Assembly: GCA_902790215.1 (NCBI GenBank)
Contig: CADAQX010000026.1
Location: 1 to 51,899 of the forward strand
Length of the DNA: 51,899 nucleotides
Direction of reading: 5' to 3'
Origin: an uncultured Bacteroidota bacterium
GTDB lineage: Bacteria; Bacteroidota; Bacteroidia; Bacteroidales; P3
A program made the translations under genes and the position numbers. The notes below the pieces were generated by a model. That model saw nothing but the letters and a program-made list of their open reading frames with translations, was not told where the DNA came from and did not search any database. This document shows positions 9,718 through 37,400 of the stretch, piece by piece. Numbering within the stretch: the first letter of the stretch is position 1; every line of letters starts with the position of its first letter.

Positions 9718-10548
9718 TTAGTCGCAGAGGACGTAGATGTCGTCGCGCGGGTTGATAAACAGGACGGGCAGCCGGTGGGGGTTGCGCACGGTGCGGTCTT
9801 CCTGCACTCCGGCAAACCATTCCACTACATCGCGGCTGCGGGTGTCGGTGGTGACGGAGATGAGCAGTCCGTGTCCCGCCTGGGCGGCGGCGGTGCATAC
9901 AAGGGTTTCGGGGAAGAGGGCGCGGCCTTCTACCGGGAGGCTGTCGTAGGTGATGCCGAGGTTGCGGAAGAATTTGTCCATGAAGAGGACGTTGTTGCTC
10001 CATTTTTTGTTCAGGCCGGTGTCGCTGTAGCGGAAGTGGAGCATGTGGAGGCGGCTGTGGTTGAAACGTGCAAAGTAGCTTGCCCATATCAGTTTCTCTT
10101 TGCTCTCTTTGTGGAAATCGATGCTGTAGGCCACATGGCTGTAGGCCTCGGGCGAGGCGAGCGGTTGCTGCACGGTGAGGTAGGCTATCTTGCACTGGGC
10201 AAAGTTGTGTATCACTTTGCGCGGATGGACTGGACTGCCGAGGCGCGCTTTGGGGTTGACACCGGCCACGGCCACCACCCCGTTGAGCAGTGTGGGCAGA
10301 GCGTTGATTATTTCGCGTGTGTTGCCCTTTATTGCCACGTGGGCAGGGTGTACCTCGGGATGGGCTTTTTCGAGCCTCAGAAGGGCGGATTCCGTCTCGT
10401 CGGTGGAGGGCAGGTGGTATCGCGGGTCTTGGATATAGAGAAAGATGAGCCCTTTGTTGAGCATGCGGGCAAGGTGGCAGGCATGGCTGACAACGGCTTG
10501 CTCCATGCTGAGGTCGGCAAGATAGGCTATGACGAACTGGTCTTTCAT
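9718..10548 (-). CDS. Universal stress protein family (tandem UspA-like)
   Basis: This 276-residue cytoplasmic protein begins MKDQFVIAYLADLSMEQAVV and has two UspA-like alpha/beta halves. The second half begins around AYSIDFHKESKEKLIWAS. Its length and layout match the other stress protein at 23625. I chose the ATG at 10548 because it overlaps the stop of the upstream T9SS gene (shared ATGA, 4 bp), which indicates translational coupling. Longer upstream frames belong to the shadow of that gene. A cytoplasmic stress protein coupled to an exported surface protein is unusual. Its function is unknown beyond family level (nucleotide-binding stress response). Confidence 0.75.
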   Translation of the reverse strand: MKDQFVIAYLADLSMEQAVVSHACHLARMLNKGLIFLYIQDPRYHLPSTDETESALLRLEKAHPEVHPAHVAIKGNTREIINALPTLLNGVVAVAGVNPKARLGSPVHPRKVIHNFAQCKIAYLTVQQPLASPEAYSHVAYSIDFHKESKEKLIWASYFARFNHSRLHMLHFRYSDTGLNKKWSNNVLFMDKFFRNLGITYDSLPVEGRALFPETLVCTAAAQAGHGLLISVTTDTRSRDVVEWFAGVQEDRTVRNPHRLPVLFINPRDDIYVLCD

Positions 10549-13500
10549 CGGATGAGTGTGATGTCGCCTTTGAGGAGATTTTCTAGCCCTGCCTCGCATT
10601 GGATGCGGCAGGTGTAGGTATAGACGCCGGGCATGCACCAGTTGTCGTTGTAGCGGCCGTCCCAGCAGTCGTTGATGTCGTGGCTTTCGTATACCTTTTC
10701 GCCCCAGCGGGTGTAGATGGCTATGTAGAAGCCGGTGATGAAGTCGCCACTGAAACAGAGCCGGTCGTTGATGCCGTCGCCGTTGGGCGAGAATGTGTTT
10801 GGAATGGATACATTGGGGCGCCCGCAGATGACTTCGGTGCAATAGAGGGGCAGCTGTCCCGTCCAGGTGCAGCCCAGGGAGTCGGTGACGGTCACGCTGT
10901 AGACGGTGAGGGTGTCGGTAGGGGTGGCCACAGGATTGGGCGATGTGGGATGGTCGAGGGTGTTGGAGGGTATCCAGTTGTAGCGAGCGCCAGGCACTGT
11001 GGTGACGTGCAGACGGGTGCTTTCGGTGAGGTAGAGGTGGGTGTTGTCGGCCCATACACTCATGTGGTAAAGTGAGGTGTCGCGGGTGATGACGGTGGTG
11101 TCGTAATAGGGACATCCGGCTGTGTCGTGCAGGAGGATTATGTAGGTGCCTTCGCAGAGGCTGTCGATGAGGGTGTCGCCTACAGCGTAGTTGAGAATGT
11201 TGTAGCGTAGCTGTATAGAGCCCTCGCATGCTTCGGTGCACAGCAGGTCGTGGACATGCTTCTCGATTTTCATGACGGGCGGATCCTGGACAGTGAAGGT
11301 GCGCTCGATACGGCAGTCGTGGTGGATGATTACGAGGGTGTGGGAACGATTGCCGGCACTGAGACCCGACAGGATGGAGTCGCCCGGTACGCCGTCCCAG
11401 TAGAAAAGTGTTGTACTGTCCGTCTCGTCAGTGAGGCGGGCTATGGCACGTCCGTCACTGCCTCCCGGACAGGTGGGGGGAATGACGATAAGGGTGTCGA
11501 GGGGGTTGATGAACTGGACGATGAATGTGTCGGTTTCGTGGCATCCGTCGAGGGTGGTTATCTGCAGTATATAGGTGCCGGTTTCGGAGACGTAGGGGTT
11601 GGCGATGCTGCTGTCGGACACATTGCCCTGTATCCATTGGTAGGAACAACCCAGCATGGGTTGGGACCCTATCTGCAGGGATGAGCCGTTGCAAGGCATT
11701 TGGGTTATGGTGTGGTGTCCGTGGTCGGCAAGTACCCGCACGATATAGTCTGTGGTGTCGGAAGTGGCGCAGCCGTTATCGAGGTAGGCAATGAGGCGTA
11801 TGCGGTAGCTGCCGGACTGGGTATAGGTGTGCTGTGGGTTGCGGGCAGTGGAGGTGGTGCCGTCGCCGAAGTCCCAAAGGAATGAGGTGCCGCGGCCGGT
11901 GTTGGTGATATTGACGGTGTAGGGTGCACATCCGGCGGGAGGTGCCACGAAGTCGGCTACGGCAAAGTCGTCGTGTATGTTGAGGCGGAAAAGGGCGTTG
12001 TTGCAGTTGTGGCTGTTGTTGTGGTTCGACCATGCCCCGTTTGTAGTGGGGAATTCGTCGTTCCCGTAGCAGCTGGCGCAGACGCTTTGGTAGAGGGTGG
12101 CCATTTTGTCAAAACGGCTGGTGCCGCCGTCCACATGGTCGTAGCCGCCGTTAGAGCCTGAGCCGTGCAGTTCGCCAAAGAAGGTGGCATAGTCGAGGCT
12201 GGAGGCATCGGCGGACATGCTCATGATGTAAAAGTCCTGTCCGTCGGTGGTGCTCTGGACGGCGTCGGTGGTGATTTCCATGTCGTATGTGCCGGCCTGG
12301 TTCCAGTTGATGCCGCCGCTACCGATGAAGTCGCGTCCCCATCCGGCGGCATAGATACGGTTGCAGATGTCGGCGGCAAAGGCGGTGGGGGAGAGGTTGG
12401 GACGCCCTAAGGGGGTTCCAAAGACGGTGGACCATTCAATGGTGTCGAGGTTTGGACGCAGGCGTGCCAAAAGCATTCCGCTGCCCGGGACATTGTAGGC
12501 GGCATTGTATATCAAGGTGCTGCCCTGGGCTTTGGTTTGACCGAAGATGAAGACTTCGTTGTGTTTGCCGCTGCGCACGAAGTATATCTGGTCGTATTGG
12601 GGTGAGCCAAAGAATGAGCTGGCAATAATGCGGTCGCCGTTGTATGAGATTTTGGTGATGAATCCGTCGGCTGAGCCTCCACCGTAAGCTGGCTGGTAGC
12701 TGCCTGGGGTGGTGGGGAAGTTGGGCGAGTTGGTGCCGCCGCACACCAGCAGGTTGTATGAACTGTCGACATCGATGGAGTAGACAGCATCGTCGAAGTT
12801 TCCTCCCAGGTAGGTAGACCATATCATGTTGCGCAGGTTGTAGTCTATCTTGAAGACGATGCCGTTTTGCCTCATGAAGGCTAACGGGGCAACACTTCCG
12901 GCTGTGGTGGGGAAGTTGGTGGAGAAGGTGGTGCTGCCGACATAGATGTTGTTGAGGTCGTCGGTAATGAGCTCTCCGCGTGCACCGTCGCCGTAGTTGA
13001 AATAGAGCGAGTCGTTGCCCAGCATGATTGTCCGGCTGTTGTGGTTGAAGTGTGCGCTGTAGTTGAGGCCGTCGTTTCCGCTGCCTCCGACATAGGTGGA
13101 AGCCTGCAGCTGTGTGCCGTCGCTGCTGAATCGGCTGACAAAGATGTCGCTGCCGTTGGGGAAGTTGATGGTTGAGGTGCCTTCAAAGGCAAGGCTGGTG
13201 CCGCCGTTGAATGAGGTGTCGAATGCTCCCTGGGTGACGGGGAAATCGGATGAGCCTGTGGTTCCGAAGATGACCAGCTCGTCGAAAGTGTTTACATACA
13301 TGCTGTGGGGCATGTCGGCCTGGCTTCCGCCGAGATAGGTGGCAAAAATCTGTTGGCTGCCAGAGGTGTCGAATTTAAAGATTCCTATATCGGCGTTTCC
13401 GTTGGAAGAGATGTCGTAAGCACCCGTTGATACGGGATAGCCTATGCCGAATACAAGCCCTGATGTATAGGTGTTTTTGTGAGCGTCGTAGGTGGCAGTG

Positions 13501-31250: not shown

Positions 31251-31625
31251 ATGAAGAAGATTATCAACACCCCCAAGGCTCCGGCAGCTATCGGGCCTTA
31301 CAGCCAGGCCGTGTTGGCCGGCAACACGCTTTACATTTCGGGACAAATTCCCATCAATCCCGCCACCAAAGAGGTGCCCGAAGGCATCACAGCCCAGACC
31401 GAGCAGGTGATGCAGAACATCAAGGCCATCCTCGACGAGGCCGGTTTCACTTTCCAGGATGTGGTGAAATCCACCTGTCTGCTGGCCGACATGGAGTATT
31501 TCAAACCCATGAACGAGGTCTACGCCAAGTATTACAGCACTGATTGTCCCGCTCGTGCCGCCTTCGCCGTGAAGGGTCTGCCTATGGGCGTGCTGGTGGA
31601 AATAGAGACTATCGCTGTCAAATAA
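31251..31625 (+). CDS. ridA: RidA family enamine/imine deaminase
   Basis: This 124-residue protein contains the RidA signature from IGPYSQAVLAGNTLYISGQI through DVVKSTCLLADMEYFKPMNEVY to CPARAAFAVKGLPMGVLVEIE. The conserved arginine of PARAAF is present. RidA hydrolyses reactive 2-aminoacrylate and related enamines formed by PLP enzymes. It is the first gene of the run with the acyl-CoA dehydrogenase and ETF, 28 bp before it. Confidence 0.93.
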   Translation: MKKIINTPKAPAAIGPYSQAVLAGNTLYISGQIPINPATKEVPEGITAQTEQVMQNIKAILDEAGFTFQDVVKSTCLLADMEYFKPMNEVYAKYYSTDCPARAAFAVKGLPMGVLVEIETIAVK

Positions 31626-31653
31626 TTGTTAAACGAAATAGACACAAATCAAT

Positions 31654-32793
31654 ATGGATTTCAGTTTCACTAAACAAGAACAACTCTTCCTGCAGATGAT
31701 TCGCGAATTTGCAGAGAAAGAGGTAAAGCCATTGGCTGCCGAAGTCGATGAAGAGGAGCGTTTCCCCATGGAGACGGTAGAAAAGATGGCCAAAATCGGC
31801 CTTATGGGCATCCCCATTCCTACACAGTATGGCGGTGCCGGTGGCACGAATATCATGTATGGCATGGCCGTCGAGGAACTTTCTCGCGTGTGCGCCACCA
31901 CGGGCGTTATCCTTTCCGCCCACACCAGCCTCTGCTGCGCCCCCATCTTGGAGGCCGGTACTGAGGAGCAGAAGATGAAATACCTGCCCAAGCTGGCTTC
32001 CGGCGAATGGATTGGAGCCTTCGGCCTGACTGAGCCCAATGCCGGTACCGATGCTGCAGGTCAGCAGACCACCGCTGTGCTGGAAGGCGATGAGTGGGTG
32101 CTCAATGGCAGCAAGATTTTCATCACCAATGGCAGCTATGCCAACGTGTTCATCATTATTGCCATGACCGACAAGAGCCTTGGTACCAAGGGTATCAGTG
32201 CCTTTATCGTCGAGAAGACCGACCCCGGTTTCAGCATCGGCAAGAAAGAAAAGAAGATGGGTATCCGCGGAAGCGCTACCACCGAGCTTATCTTCGAGGA
32301 CTGCCGCATACCCAAGGATCGTCAGTTGGGTCAGCTGGGCAAAGGCTTCGGCCTGGCCATGAAGACCCTCGACGGCGGCCGTATCGGTATCGCCTGCCAG
32401 GCTCTCGGCATTGCCCAGGGTGCTATGGACGAAACCGTTCGTTACACCAAAGAGCGTAAGCAGTTTGGCCGCAGCATCAGCCAGTTCCAGAACACCCAGT
32501 TCCAGATGGCCGACCTCGAGACCAAGGTGCAGGCTGCCCGTCTGCTCTGCCGTTCGGCTCACTACAAGAAAGATAACGGCCTGCCTTATTCCGCCGATGC
32601 CGCTATGGCCAAGCTCTTTGCTGCCGAAACGGCTATGGAGGTGACCACCAAGGCTGTCCAGTTCCACGGCGGCTATGGATACACACGCGAGTACCCCGTC
32701 GAGCGCATGATGCGCGATGCCAAGATTACCGAAATCTATGAGGGCACCAGCGAAGTCCAGCGCATGGTAATTGCCGGTAAATTGTTTAAATAA
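31654..32793 (+). CDS. Acyl-CoA dehydrogenase, short-chain (butyryl-CoA type)
   Basis: This 379-residue flavoprotein shows WIGAFGLTEPNAGTDA (FAD/substrate loop), FITNGSYANVFIIIAMTD, the C-terminal QFHGGYGYTREYPVERMMRDA, and the catalytic glutamate E363 in IYEGTSEVQRMVI. Length and motifs fit short-chain enzymes such as butyryl-CoA dehydrogenase. With ETF genes downstream it probably interconverts crotonyl-CoA and butyryl-CoA or a similar short acyl-CoA, passing electrons to ETF. Exact substrate specificity cannot be read from the sequence. Confidence 0.93.
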   Translation: MDFSFTKQEQLFLQMIREFAEKEVKPLAAEVDEEERFPMETVEKMAKIGLMGIPIPTQYGGAGGTNIMYGMAVEELSRVCATTGVILSAHTSLCCAPILEAGTEEQKMKYLPKLASGEWIGAFGLTEPNAGTDAAGQQTTAVLEGDEWVLNGSKIFITNGSYANVFIIIAMTDKSLGTKGISAFIVEKTDPGFSIGKKEKKMGIRGSATTELIFEDCRIPKDRQLGQLGKGFGLAMKTLDGGRIGIACQALGIAQGAMDETVRYTKERKQFGRSISQFQNTQFQMADLETKVQAARLLCRSAHYKKDNGLPYSADAAMAKLFAAETAMEVTTKAVQFHGGYGYTREYPVERMMRDAKITEIYEGTSEVQRMVIAGKLFK

Positions 32794-32796
32794 TAA

Positions 32797-32868
32797 TCAG
32801 AATATTCGGAGTATTCAGAGTATTCTGAATTCTCAGAATAGTCAGAATAATTAGAGTAATCAGAAGAA
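32797..32868. repeat. 9-bp tandem repeat between acyl-CoA dehydrogenase and etfB
   Basis: Eight imperfect 9-bp units with consensus tcagaatat/tcagagtaa fill the whole gap, ending one base before the etfB ATG. It forms an AT-rich spacer in the ribosome-binding region of etfB, so unit-number changes could alter translation. Confidence 0.8.
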
Positions 32869-32869
32869 T

Positions 32870-33655
32870 ATGAATATAGTAGTTTGCATAAAACAAGTGC
32901 CGGACACTACCGAGGTGAAAATCAACCCCCAGACCGGTACATTAATCCGCGAAGGCGTGCCCAGCATCATGAACCCCGACGACAAGGGTGGCTTGGAGTT
33001 TGCCCTTCAGCTGAAAGATAAATACGGTGCACACGTCACTGTTATCACCATGGGTCTGCCCCAGGCCGAAGCCATCCTGCGCGAGGCTTTAGCCATGGGC
33101 GTTGACCGTGCCATCCTGCTCACCGACCGCAAACTGGGTGGTGCCGATACCCTGGCTACTTCCAGTGCCATTGCCGGTGCTCTGCGCACGATGGACTTTG
33201 ACCTGATTATCACTGGTCGTCAGGCTATCGACGGCGACACCGCTCAGGTGGGTCCTCAGATTGCCGAACATCTCGACCTGCCGCAGGTCTCCTACATGGA
33301 AGACCTCCAGTACGACGAGGCTACCAAGACTTTCACTGTCCGCAAGCAGATGGAAGACGGCTATCAGATTCTCCAGATGCAGGCTCCTTGTGTCGTGACC
33401 GCTTTGGCAAGTGCTGTGCAGCCCCGCTACATGACTGTTAGCGGCATCGTGAATGCCTTCGACAAGGAAGTCGAGGTATGGGGTGCCGACCGCATCAATG
33501 TCCCCGAGGACCGTATTGGTAAAGCCGGTTCGCCCACGAGCGTGTTCAAGTCGTTCCCCAAGCAGCTGAAGCCTGCCGGCCAGACCTTCGAGGTTACACC
33601 CGAAGAGGCTGTGGAGCTCATCGTTAATAAACTGAAAGAAAAACATATTATCTAA
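32870..33655 (+). CDS. etfB: Electron transfer flavoprotein beta subunit
   Basis: This 261-residue protein begins MNIVVCIKQVPDTTEVKINP, with DKGGLEFALQLKDKYGAHVT and the nucleotide-binding segment IDGDTAQVGPQIAEHLDLP. It forms a heterodimer with EtfA and takes electrons from the acyl-CoA dehydrogenase. The order acd-etfB-etfA is typical of clostridial-type Bcd/Etf clusters, where the ETF may bifurcate electrons from NADH to crotonyl-CoA and ferredoxin. Whether this one bifurcates is only inferred from context. Confidence 0.94.
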   Translation: MNIVVCIKQVPDTTEVKINPQTGTLIREGVPSIMNPDDKGGLEFALQLKDKYGAHVTVITMGLPQAEAILREALAMGVDRAILLTDRKLGGADTLATSSAIAGALRTMDFDLIITGRQAIDGDTAQVGPQIAEHLDLPQVSYMEDLQYDEATKTFTVRKQMEDGYQILQMQAPCVVTALASAVQPRYMTVSGIVNAFDKEVEVWGADRINVPEDRIGKAGSPTSVFKSFPKQLKPAGQTFEVTPEEAVELIVNKLKEKHII

Positions 33656-33660
33656 TAGCC

Positions 33661-34643
33661 ATGAATTTACAAGATTATAAAGACGTATACGTATTTGCCG
33701 AACAGCGTGACGGCGTCATCCAGAATGTAGCTCGGCCGATGCCAACAACGAGAAGGTTGTTGCCATCCTCTTAGGAAAAGACATCAAGGGGAAAGCCCAG
33801 GAACTTATTGCCTCCGGTGCTGACAAAGTGTTGGTTGTTGACCACGACCTGCTGGCCACCTATCTCACCGAGCCCTATACCCAGGCCATTACCCAGATTA
33901 TCAAAGAGCAGAAGCCCAGCATCCTGCTCATTGGTGCCACCACCATCGGCCGTGACCTCGGCCCCCGTGTCTCCGCACGCAATGTCACCGGTCTTACCGC
34001 AGATGCCACCAAGCTGGAGATTAGCGACGACGAGGCTCACGAGTTCCGTATGACCCGTCCGGCTTTCGGTGGTAACCTGATGGCTACCATTCTCTGCAAA
34101 CAGCACCGTCCGCAGATGTCTACTGTCCGCCCCGGTGTCATGCAGAAGATGCCTGCCGATCCCAGCCGCAAGGGTGAGATTGTGGACTATAAAGTCCAAT
34201 TCGACGAGCAGAAAATCAACCGTGTGAGGATTATCAAGACCGTCAAGGAAGAGAAGGTTATCACCGACATCAGCCAGGCCAAAATCCTGGTCAGCGGTGG
34301 CCGCGGTGTGGGTACCAAGGACGGCTTCTCCAAGCTTGAGGCCCTTGCCAAGGAGCTGAAAGGCGAAGTGTCCAGCAGCCGTGCTATGGTTGATGCCGGT
34401 GTCATGGATCAGAGCCGTCAGGTGGGACAGACAGGTAAGACCGTGCGTCCCAACCTCTATCTTGCCTGCGGTATCAGCGGTGCCATTCAGCACCTTGCCG
34501 GTATGGAAGAGAGCGAGCTGATCATTGCCATCAACAAGGACAAGTTTGCCCCCATCTTCAGCGTTGCCGACCTCGGCATTGTGGGTGACCTCCACAAGAT
34601 TGTCCCCATGCTTACCGAGCGCCTCAAATCGAGGCAGAAGTAA
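33661..34643 (+). pseudogene. etfA: Electron transfer flavoprotein alpha subunit, frameshifted near 5' end
   Basis: The ATG at 33661, 5 bp after etfB, starts a normal EtfA N-terminus (NLQDYKDVYVFAEQRDGVIQ). After NVA (~33732) the frame changes and meets a TAG at 33772. The other frame continues as ADANNEKVVAILLGKD and runs intact to 34643, with the FAD-binding text GQTGKTVRPNLYLACGISG. About ten residues expected in the family between these parts are missing. The shift fits a net loss of 3n+1 bases, such as 28 or 31. An in-frame ATG at 33828 could give only an N-terminally truncated protein. It is either a recent deletion mutant or an assembly error, since the rest shows no decay. Confidence 0.88.
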
Positions 34644-34769
34644 CATCACTTCATAAACAATTAGAGACATCCCAAGCCGGATGTCTCTTTTTTTTGAAAT
34701 TATACCATTTGGCATTATGCTAAAAGGTATAATTGTTATATGCTCATAATTAATGATATATAGTGGTGT
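34604..34769 (+). repeat. Direct repeat, left copy (etfA 3' end, terminator and palindrome)
   Basis: It starts in the last 13 codons of etfA (PMLTERLK...QK) and continues through the terminator hairpin and an AT-rich palindrome to tatatagtggtgt. It matches 36138-36302 with a few differences. Between the two copies lies the ATPase gene. Confidence 0.88.
34663..34695 (+). terminator. Terminator after etfA
   Basis: The 10-bp stem agagacatcc/ggatgtctct, with loop caagcc, is followed by a run of eight T. It ends the ridA-acd-etfBA transcript. Confidence 0.85.
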
Positions 34770-34805
34770 AAGAAAATTTATTATGTTTAATTGAAAAAAA
34801 AAAGG

Positions 34806-34813
34806 TATCTTTG
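34806..34813 (+). promoter_or_regulatory. Putative -7 box of the ATPase gene
   Basis: TATCTTTG fits TAnnTTTG and lies 20 bp before the ATG at 34834. No convincing -33 TTTG is present at the normal distance. Confidence 0.5.
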
Positions 34814-34833
34814 CAAAACAAATACAAAAAGGT

Positions 34834-35949
34834 ATGAATCCATTTAGTTACGGTACCATAGTCCGTGGAGACTCATTTTTCGACAGAAAGGAAGAGACGA
34901 AACTACTCATCGATACATTATCTGGCGGTAACAACGTAGTATTGTTTGCACCCCGTCGTTATGGGAAGACCTCTCTTGTCTTTCGGGTGATGGAACATTT
35001 AGAGGAACGGGGAATACCCTGTCTTTACATTGATTTGATGTCAGCTTTCTCTCTTGAACGTTTTGCAGAGTTGATTGTTGAGGCAGCAAGGAAAAAACAG
35101 AGCAAGCTTGAGGTTTTTGCTCAAGAATTGTCAGAGTGGGTAAAAAAAATACGCCCAACCATAGAATTTGGTCTTGATGGGTCACCAAAGTTTTCCATCG
35201 ATTTTTCCGAGCAGCACATTTCTCATTCTACGCTCACCCAGGTTTTCGAAATTCCACAACAACTCGCCAAGCAGTATGGACAAGTGGTTGTAGTATTTGA
35301 CGAGTTTCAAGAAATATCAAGATTCAACAATGATGGGGTAGAGGCTTTATTGCGTTCTGTCATACAGCAGCAACAAGGGGTCAGCTACCTTTTTCTCGGC
35401 AGCAAGACTCACATGATGTCGCAAATGTTTGAGAACAAGAAACGTCCTTTTTTCAATTCGGGAATTCATGTGCAGATTGGGGCGTTGCCAGAAGATGAAA
35501 CCATTGAGTTTCTGCAGAAGCAATTTGCTACAAATAACATCACTATTGGAGATGATGAGGCAAGGTATTTAATACAATGTGCAGCAAACATACCTTATTA
35601 TATCCAGCTTTTGGCCTCCTTTATCTGGCAACGCAAGGTGATGAATGGTGGTGAGATTGTCGTTGGCGACATCAATGATAGCGTACAGGATATCATTGTC
35701 TTAAAAGGTGATTTTTATCACGAACAGTTTAATCGGTATTCGATAGGACAAAAACAGCTATTACGTGCATTGTCTCGTGACGGGAGTCATATCTTCTCCG
35801 TTGATTACATACGTAGAAACAAACTAAATACATCTTCCACCGTTCAAAAAAACATCAAAATCTTATTAGAGGATGGAATAGCAGACAAAACAGGTGGTAC
35901 TTATTTCATCAGCGACCCATTTTTCCGCATATATTTGCAGGGAATATGA
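34834..35949 (+). CDS. AAA+ ATPase of the archaeal-type ATPase_2 family
   Basis: This 371-residue protein opens MNPFSYGTIVRGDSFFDRKE. It has Walker A APRRYGKTS (residues 39-47), Walker B VVVVFDEFQE (151-160), and a sensor-like segment FLGSKTHMMSQMF. A C-terminal winged-helix-like part follows (SVDYIRRNKLNTSSTVQKNI). This STAND/AAA family is amplified in Bacteroidota and archaea; cellular roles are mostly unknown. The gene is clearly more AT-rich than its neighbours, has its own promoter and lies between ~165-bp direct repeats, all signs of later acquisition. No partner gene accompanies it. Confidence 0.88.
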   Translation: MNPFSYGTIVRGDSFFDRKEETKLLIDTLSGGNNVVLFAPRRYGKTSLVFRVMEHLEERGIPCLYIDLMSAFSLERFAELIVEAARKKQSKLEVFAQELSEWVKKIRPTIEFGLDGSPKFSIDFSEQHISHSTLTQVFEIPQQLAKQYGQVVVVFDEFQEISRFNNDGVEALLRSVIQQQQGVSYLFLGSKTHMMSQMFENKKRPFFNSGIHVQIGALPEDETIEFLQKQFATNNITIGDDEARYLIQCAANIPYYIQLLASFIWQRKVMNGGEIVVGDINDSVQDIIVLKGDFYHEQFNRYSIGQKQLLRALSRDGSHIFSVDYIRRNKLNTSSTVQKNIKILLEDGIADKTGGTYFISDPFFRIYLQGI

Positions 35950-35972
35950 GAAAAACAAATATATGTACCGCG

Positions 35973-36000
35973 TTGTGGTACACCAATAGGTGTATCTTTG
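35973..36000 (+). promoter_or_regulatory. Orphan promoter-like sequence
   Basis: TTG (35973-35975) and TATCTTTG (35993-36000) with 17 bp between resemble a Bacteroidota promoter. The next frame downstream stops almost at once. The only coding trace before the next terminator is the etfA fragment, so this may be the promoter of a deleted gene or of a short RNA. Confidence 0.4.
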
Positions 36001-36138
36001 CATTTTGAAAATAACTAATAAACGGAGACAAGATTAGATAAAGATGGTCTGAAAGATTATTGAGATAGTGTTATTGTAAATGAAGAAATAGACTAGACAT
36101 AATAAAAAAAGATACGCACATCAGGCGGCTCTTACCGC

Positions 36139-36177
36139 CCCATGCTGACCGAGCGCCTGAAAACCATGCAGAAGTAA
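36139..36177 (+). pseudogene. etfA: 3' fragment of a second etfA
   Basis: The last 12 codons plus stop of an EtfA gene (PMLTERLKTMQK) stand alone without any upstream coding part. They are followed by the same terminator as the nearby etfA, as expected for a remnant of a duplicated or deleted etfA copy. Confidence 0.75.
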
Positions 36178-36196
36178 CAACACTTCATAAACAATT

Positions 36197-36228
36197 AGAG
36201 ACATCCCAAGCCGGATGTCTCTTTTTTT
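36197..36228 (+). terminator. Second copy of the etfA terminator
   Basis: The stem agagacatcc/ggatgtctct with loop caagcc and a T run is identical in stem and loop to the copy at 34663. Confidence 0.8.
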
Positions 36229-36230
36229 GT

Positions 36231-36267
36231 AATTATACCTTTTGGCATTATGCTAAAAGGTATAATT
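36231..36267. repeat. 37-bp palindrome in the right direct repeat
   Basis: The arms aattatacctttt (36231-36243) and aaaaggtataatt (36255-36267) pair perfectly. The loop ggcattatgct itself contains gcat-t-atgc, so the whole site is almost a continuous inverted repeat. The left copy (34698-34734) has one arm mismatch. Confidence 0.8.
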
Positions 36268-36486
36268 GTTATATGCTAATAATTAATGATATATAGTGGT
36301 GTGTGGTTAAAGACGATACTAATCGAGATGAGAAAACATTTGTTTTGTTATAAATATGTTGGTATATCGTTTTTTGACAGCTCCGGGAGGTGGTTGTCGG
36401 GACTGATTTTATTGGATGGAGGAAGTCTGCAGTTGTTAAATTAACGATTTTTTTTTTGCAAATAGTAATATTTAAATTTTTTTTAT

Positions 36487-36581: not shown

Positions 36582-37400
36582 ATGAGGGTAATCATTACAA
36601 AAGACTACACAGACATGTCTGTTTGGGCTGCCAACTATGTAGCCAAAAGAATCATCGATGCCAATCCTACACCCGAGAAGCCATTCGTATTGGGTTGTCC
36701 CACGGGCAGCTCCCCTTTAGGCCTCTACCAGCATCTGATTGAATTGAATAAAAGGGGTGTTATTAGTTTCAAGAACGTTATTACGTTCAACATGGATGAG
36801 TACGTGGGGCTGGATGTGAACCATCCCGAGAGCTACCACAGCTTTATGTGGACGAACTTCTTCAATCACATCGACATTAAGAAGGAGAATGTCCATATTC
36901 TCGACGGCAACGCTCCCGACTTGTTGGCCGAGTGCGCCCACTATGAGGAGATGATAGAGAAGGCTGGTGGCATCGACCTGTTTATGGGTGGAATCGGACC
37001 GGATGGCCATATCGCATTCAACGAGCCTGGCAGCAGCCTTTCGTCAAGAACGCGTATCAAGACACTCACCACCAACACCATCCAGGCTAACAGCCGTTTC
37101 TTCGACGATGACATCAACCAAGTGCCTAAACAGGCTCTGACTGTCGGTGTTGGAACCGTAATGGATGCCCGCGAGGTGCTCATCCTTTGCAACGGCCCCA
37201 AGAAAGCCCGTGCATTGCGCCACATGATTGAGGAAGGCGTAAGCCACATGTGGACTGCCAGTATGCTGCAGATGCACAGGCACGGCATGGTGGTGTGCGA
37301 CGAGGAGGCGTGCGAAGAGCTCAAAATCAGCACCTATAACTACTTTAAGGATAAACAGAAACTGGAGGGAGTTATTGACGAATATCTGCACCTCTTCTAA
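36582..37400 (+). CDS. nagB: Glucosamine-6-phosphate deaminase NagB
   Basis: This 272-residue cytoplasmic enzyme converts glucosamine-6-phosphate to fructose-6-phosphate and ammonia. Motifs: LGCPTGSSPLGLY (phosphate binding), MDEYVGL (residues 71-77) and GGIGPDGHIAFNEPG (136-150), with the catalytic Asp/His/Glu region of the family. It is a single gene between a promoter and a terminator. Together with AnmK it supports amino-sugar recycling. Confidence 0.96.
   Translation: MRVIITKDYTDMSVWAANYVAKRIIDANPTPEKPFVLGCPTGSSPLGLYQHLIELNKRGVISFKNVITFNMDEYVGLDVNHPESYHSFMWTNFFNHIDIKKENVHILDGNAPDLLAECAHYEEMIEKAGGIDLFMGGIGPDGHIAFNEPGSSLSSRTRIKTLTTNTIQANSRFFDDDINQVPKQALTVGVGTVMDAREVLILCNGPKKARALRHMIEEGVSHMWTASMLQMHRHGMVVCDEEACEELKISTYNYFKDKQKLEGVIDEYLHLF

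Follow-up and report, generated by a model that had tools for sequence, protein, structure and literature searches.

The DNA analysed here, called the window, is a stretch of 51,899 nucleotides and constitutes contig C26 of an uncultured Bacteroidota genome of 2.98 Mb in 40 contigs (assembly GCA_902790215.1). G labels mark the genomes compared, G000 being the window's own, and L labels mark individual loci. Between etfA and nagB, both housekeeping genes of this rumen-type bacterium, the window carries a gene for an ATPase of the ATPase_2 family, flanked by two diverged direct repeats. This region is probably what remains of an island that held the ATPase and a type I-C CRISPR-Cas system (clustered regularly interspaced short palindromic repeats and associated proteins). 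The repeats are most likely the scar of a recombination in this decaying island, not the footprint of a transposase. On balance, the lasting core of the island appears to be a module of two parts. One is an AAA+ ATPase that resembles Orc1/Cdc6 and has a winged helix; the other is a palindromic site of 33 bases immediately outside its gene. This gene and this site occur together in many phyla of bacteria and archaea.

The repeats and the probable island between etfA and nagB

The repeats are 94.0% identical over 166 columns, with 10 differences, one gap included. The E-value of 1.1e-69 excludes chance. With the right repeat as query against the window, both repeats were found, and otherwise only the reverse strands of the palindromes. 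Each repeat contains the last 12 codons of etfA with the stop, a terminator hairpin, a palindrome and the tail tatatagtggtgt. The palindromes are 37 bases long (34698-34734 in the left copy, 36231-36267 in the right), and their 33-base core is present twice in the window, against 0.01 expected from shuffles. Among the open reading frames (ORFs) of at least 80 amino acids between the repeats, the ATPase is alone on the coding strand, accompanied by a 93-amino-acid antisense frame.

An earlier reading of this DNA, made from the sequence only, had described diverged direct repeats of about 165 bp around an ATPase_2 gene, each with these same components, and we find all of them. It had also taken the repeats for something other than a simple recent target-site duplication, and had seen no transposase or integrase. 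We agree on both points. The repeats measure 165-166 bases and differ by 6%, which is not the short identical duplication left with a transposase, and no transposase ORF lies between them. Likewise, no integrase gene, as in a tyrosine-recombinase element, is present among the ORFs between the repeats or among those between the two palindrome units of G027.

The order etfA, palindrome, nagB is common to four relatives (G027, G021, G062 and G110). G027 (RUG264, ONFR01000023.1, an uncultured Bacteroidales) carries the closest ATPase, in the same place and with 94.4% DNA identity. Its locus consists of etfA, palindrome, ATPase, cas3, cas5c, cas8c, cas7, cas4, cas1c, cas2, a 14-repeat array, a second palindrome unit and nagB. 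The type I-C system is complete, with all seven Cas proteins above the NCBIfam cut-offs. The ORFs between the two palindrome units are the ATPase and the seven cas genes, plus antisense or array frames. At the window locus there are no cas genes; the ATPase and 65 bases of the cas3 leader are what persists.

The other three relatives present scraps of the same island. In G021, a palindrome unit is followed by a second, partial one about 0.84 kb further. The ATPase gene is gone, and 31 bases spanning its 3' end persist (93.5%). In G110, 41 bases resemble a CRISPR repeat (83%), and in G062, 68 bases resemble, at 78%, the lead-in to the first repeat of the G027 array. Considering these scraps and the full island of G027, the single-copy relatives are eroded and not naive sites. 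So, the comparison of the etfA-nagB interval suggested in the sequence-only reading gives a divided answer: one repeat copy without ATPase is present in G062 and G110, but the CRISPR scraps there belong to eroded sites. In the simplest history, the common ancestor would have had an island with the ATPase and type I-C CRISPR-Cas, and this island would have eroded independently in its descendants.

Elsewhere in G000, the sole Cas1 match is 25% identical to the I-C Cas1 of G027. It lies at L094 (G000:C10:64536-68288) and is followed by repeat-like sequence; judged by eye, this would be a CRISPR system of a different type.

The etfA tail is KTMQK in the right copy and KSRQK in the left one. It is KSMQK in G021, G027, G062 and G110, and 13 of the 20 relatives listed have Thr-Met at this position. 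Both repeats share one form of the terminator, unlike that of G027 and G021. The 122 bases before the right repeat have no source in 120 genomes of the genus, barring one 23-base match. The right tail would fit an import from a related strain at the time when the CRISPR-Cas half was lost; with 36 coding bases, this is suggestive only. In such a history, the two recombination partners would have been an island-bearing allele and an allele of a related strain in which the island was already lost. Through the join, the CRISPR-Cas half would have been replaced, and a second etfA tail would have come in together with its site. The remains of a tandem duplication of an acd-etfBA unit, proposed in the earlier reading, are not needed. 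The right copy holds the last etfA codons only, preceded by the source-less bases. G000 has a second etfA paralog with an open frame on contig C22; it was discarded as source of the right tail because its 3' end differs.

The right repeat might also be an assembly artefact, with two related strains in one contig. The division of the genome into 40 contigs would allow it, and the right copy does present the other tail type behind a join that matches nothing elsewhere. However, outside the etf operon the window has diverged from G027 to a similarly high degree to the left and to the right (per-gene figures of 74 for anmK and 82 for mboat on the left; 83 for nagB, 73 for miaA, 81 for cca and 81 for der on the right), with no step in relatedness at the join. 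The island is bracketed by two site units in G027 and G021 too. We consider an artefact improbable.

The 33-base site and its association with ATPase genes

The site is of the type TTAYRY-N6-RYRTWAYRY-N6-RYRTAA. It consists of two overlapping dyads, TTAYRY-N6-RYRTAA, in a 15-base step. The arms covary: 14 cells changed on both sides, and both the cells and the score were above all 500 shuffles, while the number of pairs changed on both sides (5) was equalled by 58 of the 500. In the seven genus copies with an upstream flank, the core ends 101 or 102 bases 5' of the ATG, whatever the surroundings.

The core recurs beside ATPase genes that are mostly 28-49% identical. We counted exact sites (spacers of 4-7 bases) within 220 bases upstream or 150 downstream of ORFs of 230-520 amino acids with 450 bases of flank on both sides, that is, 74 ATPases and 366 others. 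The site stands beside 40 of the 74 ATPases, against 12 of the 366 other ORFs of the same loci and none of the 222 shuffled flanks. Of these 12, at least 9 are the same sites counted from a neighbouring or antisense ORF. The control match 'window 17185' was set aside in this way, being the left site counted from an antisense ORF. The sites of the 40 genes are upstream in 31 and downstream in 12, 3 of these having both; many upstream sites lie within 40 bases of the ATG. In 80 ATPase loci, the pattern gave 51 matches and its reversed form none, a rate that applies to loci chosen for their ATPase and is not genome-wide. After merging, 50 matches were left, of which 48 were within 300 bases of an ATPase stretch; the remaining two include the second unit of G027.

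Within the genus, 13 of the 120 genomes have an exact site. They comprise seven of the eight ATPase carriers and six genomes without a close ATPase (G021, G062, G068, G110, G112 and G137). The contig of the eighth carrier begins 35 bases before the gene. A protein search for ATPase scraps beside the solitary sites of G068, G112, G137 and G041 found none that is convincing. At L210 of G137 (440-1270 and 1312-1344), the place where L097, L098 and L100 have the ATPase, the site is present beside a different gene, whose product looks by eye like a DUF4143-type ATP-binding protein. G000 has no third exact site, despite five more ATPase_2 genes at 25-31% identity, which places the site in a single branch of the family. 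A blind pattern search in 395 genomes of the phylum matched 11, the own one included. In five of the ten others, the site has an ATPase of 25-30% identity no more than about 60 bases away, and the other five are at noise level. A match to the Rfam family BSnc119 was dismissed (29.7 of 115 bits gathering score, overlapping the etfA end and terminator).

A quick tree was made with 70 of the 74 ATPases; four shorter than 320 amino acids were left out, and some branches are long. With one mismatch allowed, 35 genes have the site upstream, 7 downstream and 6 on both sides; in the other 22 none was found. The downstream state changes 7 times on the tree and the upstream state 11 times, below all 200 shuffles (means 12.2 and 22.8). 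The position of the site follows the gene tree. The grade leading to the window's group contains genes with a downstream site, from records named Neomarinimicrobiota, Ignavibacteriales, Bacteroidales and Spirochaetes. The phylum labels need 28 changes for 21 phyla among 58 rows, near the minimum.

For the function of the two-part module, we propose that the winged helix would bind the site. Where it overlaps a promoter, the site would act as operator for the ATPase gene itself; behind the gene or alone, it would mark the end or former place of the module. Eight of 26 upstream sites, counted without a control set, overlap the -10/+1 part of a sigma-70-like pair, and this overlap suggests an operator.

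The site could be a mere operator through which an ordinary regulator-like ATPase, shared horizontally, controls its own gene. The site would then play no part in mobility, and the window repeats would be an accident of island decay. This is a real possibility, somewhat short of probable. The predominance of upstream positions, the promoter overlap and the winged helix of the modelled fold agree with it. On the other hand, in whole branches of the tree the sites are downstream only, no further than about 50 bases from the stop, and the six genus genomes above have a site without a close ATPase. The left site of the window itself precedes the promoter-like box and falls within the terminator region of etfA.

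Exchange of the ATPase and repeats at other loci

A close copy of the ATPase is present in 8 of the 120 genomes of the genus, at four places as judged by the flanks. The gene is patchy in the genus. Between G000 and G027, the synonymous divergence (dS) is 0.22 for the ATPase. It is 0.39-0.56 for yabJ, acd, etfB and etfA, and 0.92-1.52 for nagB, miaA, cca, der and anmK; mboat was not included, with only 20 codons aligned. The low value indicates that the ATPase was exchanged between G000 and G027 after their lineages split, and more recently than its neighbours. The ratio of non-synonymous to synonymous divergence (dN/dS) is about 0.10. It means that the ATPase was kept working.

The yabJ-acd-etfBA operon (window 31251-34643) has 86-97% DNA identity between species in several pairs, against 66-95% for its neighbours. 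This may be due to codon bias or to repeated recombination. Among plasmid records, 45 match the ATPase, all below 60% identity (best 27.3% among 15 listed). Two phage records match it at 27-28%; the viral contigs contain no relative, and at the nucleotide level the region has no match in the plasmids.

Direct repeats of at least 40 bits flank 20 of the 74 ATPases, against 17 of the 366 control ORFs. In the window and at L096, L099, L212 (the same locus as L100) and L102, the repeat occurs exactly twice on the sequence examined, once per side. L102 encodes a 48% relative of the window ATPase, and its 110-base repeat (9833-9942 and 11150-11259) is 99% identical and includes the first part of the next gene after the ATPase, which by eye encodes an ATP-binding protein of an ABC (ATP-binding cassette) transporter. 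Among the loci compared, L102 is the strongest candidate for a recent insertion that duplicated its target. At L144, a 441-base repeat (551-991 and 2257-2688, 85% identical) lies on both sides of the ATPase and reads as protein, which we take to resemble the GxxExxY kind.

These repeats raise the idea of a mobile single-gene element. The ATPase with its site would insert and leave a long local target duplication (66-192 bases in the cases observed), for example via a circle carrying a copy of the target, and the window would be one such insertion. The four places in the genus and the constant distance from site to ATG in differing surroundings are also in its favour. Nevertheless, we consider it doubtful. 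An older island existed at this place, according to G027 and the scraps in G021, G110 and G062, and no naive empty site was found. The other repeats are mixed, being low-complexity (L103, L158), dispersed-looking (L114, L161) or gene-sized (L144). Five independent loci have no repeat above 25 bits, with 317-360 bases of downstream flank examined. Given the mixed types and these five loci, a long target duplication as a rule for the whole family was dropped. A wider proposal sees in the Orc-like ATPase and its site a minimal module that spreads by itself, without a transposase or integrase of its own. It would settle between genes with long target duplications and could shelter cargo such as CRISPR-Cas between two sites. 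We hold this to be unlikely as well.

The insertion of the ATPase gene, as put forward in the sequence-only reading, stands in part. The gene is patchy, occupies four places and is younger than its neighbours in the G000/G027 comparison, and other ATPases lie between two local copies too. A plain insertion into an empty etfA-nagB gap finds no support, given the G027 island and the scraps.

Several observations weigh against the scar and the two-part module as we present them. The recombination step leans on about 36 coding bases of the tail and on the unexplained 122-base join. The scar does not explain the direct repeats that flank ATPases elsewhere. Codon bias may account for the lower dS of the etf operon, which other pairs show as well. 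Regarding the site, 22 of the 70 ATPases lack it within one mismatch. In the phylum sample, the pattern matches no more genomes than its reversed control (11 versus 9), and only the ATPase adjacency stands out. An operator function by itself does not account for sites that lie behind the gene or stand without one. Finally, the tree by itself does not show frequent transfer of the ATPase between phyla.

The table gives the features of the locus. The -7 box was read against the Bacteroidota promoter consensus. Compared with G021 and G027, the window etfA lacks 28 bases near 33734, and the frame is broken upstream of the ORF at 33828-34643. The broken part (33662-33830) may be real decay or an assembly fault.

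Table. Features of the etfA-nagB region, in window coordinates.
Feature	Position	Strand	Basis
etfA, downstream part of frame	33828..34643	+	ORF, profile
Left repeat: etfA end (tail KSRQK), terminator, palindrome unit	34604..34769	+	sequence, repeat alignment
Left 33-base site, core of 37-base palindrome; 101 bases 5' of ATPase ATG	34700..34732	.	
TATCTTTG, resembles -7 box of Bacteroidota promoter, putative ATPase promoter	34806..34813	+	read from sequence
ATPase_2 gene, Orc1/Cdc6-like AAA+ ATPase, C-terminal winged-helix-like domain; 371 amino acids	34834..35949	+	ORF, profile, model
cas3 leader remnant of G027 island, 65 bases at 93.8%	35951..36015	+	alignment with G027
122-base source-less stretch, one 23-base match only (120 genomes of genus)	36016..36137	.	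sequence search
Right repeat: etfA tail of other type (KTMQK), terminator, palindrome unit	36138..36302	+	sequence, repeat alignment
Right 33-base site	36233..36265	.	
nagB, glucosamine isomerase family PF01182, right border of island	36582..37400	+	ORF, profile

The ATPase and its comparison with known systems

We know of no agreed function for ATPase_2 genes. A DNA site that stays with a gene of this family in many phyla is a directly testable handle on it. The window ATPase matches PF01637 (ATPase_2) with 43.5 bits, above the cut-off of 33.2, and 48 of 48 aligned relatives match this family at E 0.01. The structure model (mean predicted local distance difference test, pLDDT, 92.6) presents an AAA+ domain followed by a winged helix, the fold of ATPase_2 and of the Orc1/Cdc6 initiators. 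A winged helix is also supported by Pfam, where two of the 48 relatives match MarR_2 and two match TrmB. Defence models gave no strong match (best PADLOC 24.4 bits, PDC-S01; NCBIfam DS41_1 24.7 bits against a cut-off of 370). In the structure comparison (VIA-align 2), the nearest solved structures are 2qen and 2fna. They are followed by Orc2, DNA-bound Orc1/Cdc6 over the whole chain, resistosome proteins of the nucleotide-binding leucine-rich repeat (NLR) kind, and TnsC.

The nucleotide-binding domain of a plant NLR resembles DNA-binding Cdc6/Orc1 (PMC4599002), the AAA+ domain of the mycobacterial regulator IniR has been likened to SSO1545 (PMC5760070), and PF01637 has been linked to the N-terminal part of DUF1703 nucleases (PMC1913061). 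The portions of these three papers that were covered do not mention a site of this kind. The open papers, the only ones covered, contain no earlier description of the 33-base site that we could find.

The two nearest structures, 2qen (PABY2304, Pyrococcus abyssi) and 2fna (SSO1545, Sulfolobus), are 17-20% identical to the window ATPase, and within the same open papers we found no DNA site described for either. The archaeal Orc1/Cdc6 initiators are 13-15% identical to it. There is no sign that the 33-base site is a replication origin, no test having been aimed at that. TnsC-type ATPases of Tn7-like transposons are a structural match but not the best one, and transposase genes are absent between the window repeats. 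Integron gene cassettes would be alike in having one gene with one palindromic site, solitary sites and a patchy spread. They differ in that no integron integrase is seen at the locus and that the flanking repeats are far longer than a recombination site. The type I-C CRISPR-Cas locus, finally, is complete in G027 directly behind the same ATPase and absent from the window apart from the leader remnant. The locus illustrates the loss of CRISPR-Cas while the neighbouring ATPase persists.
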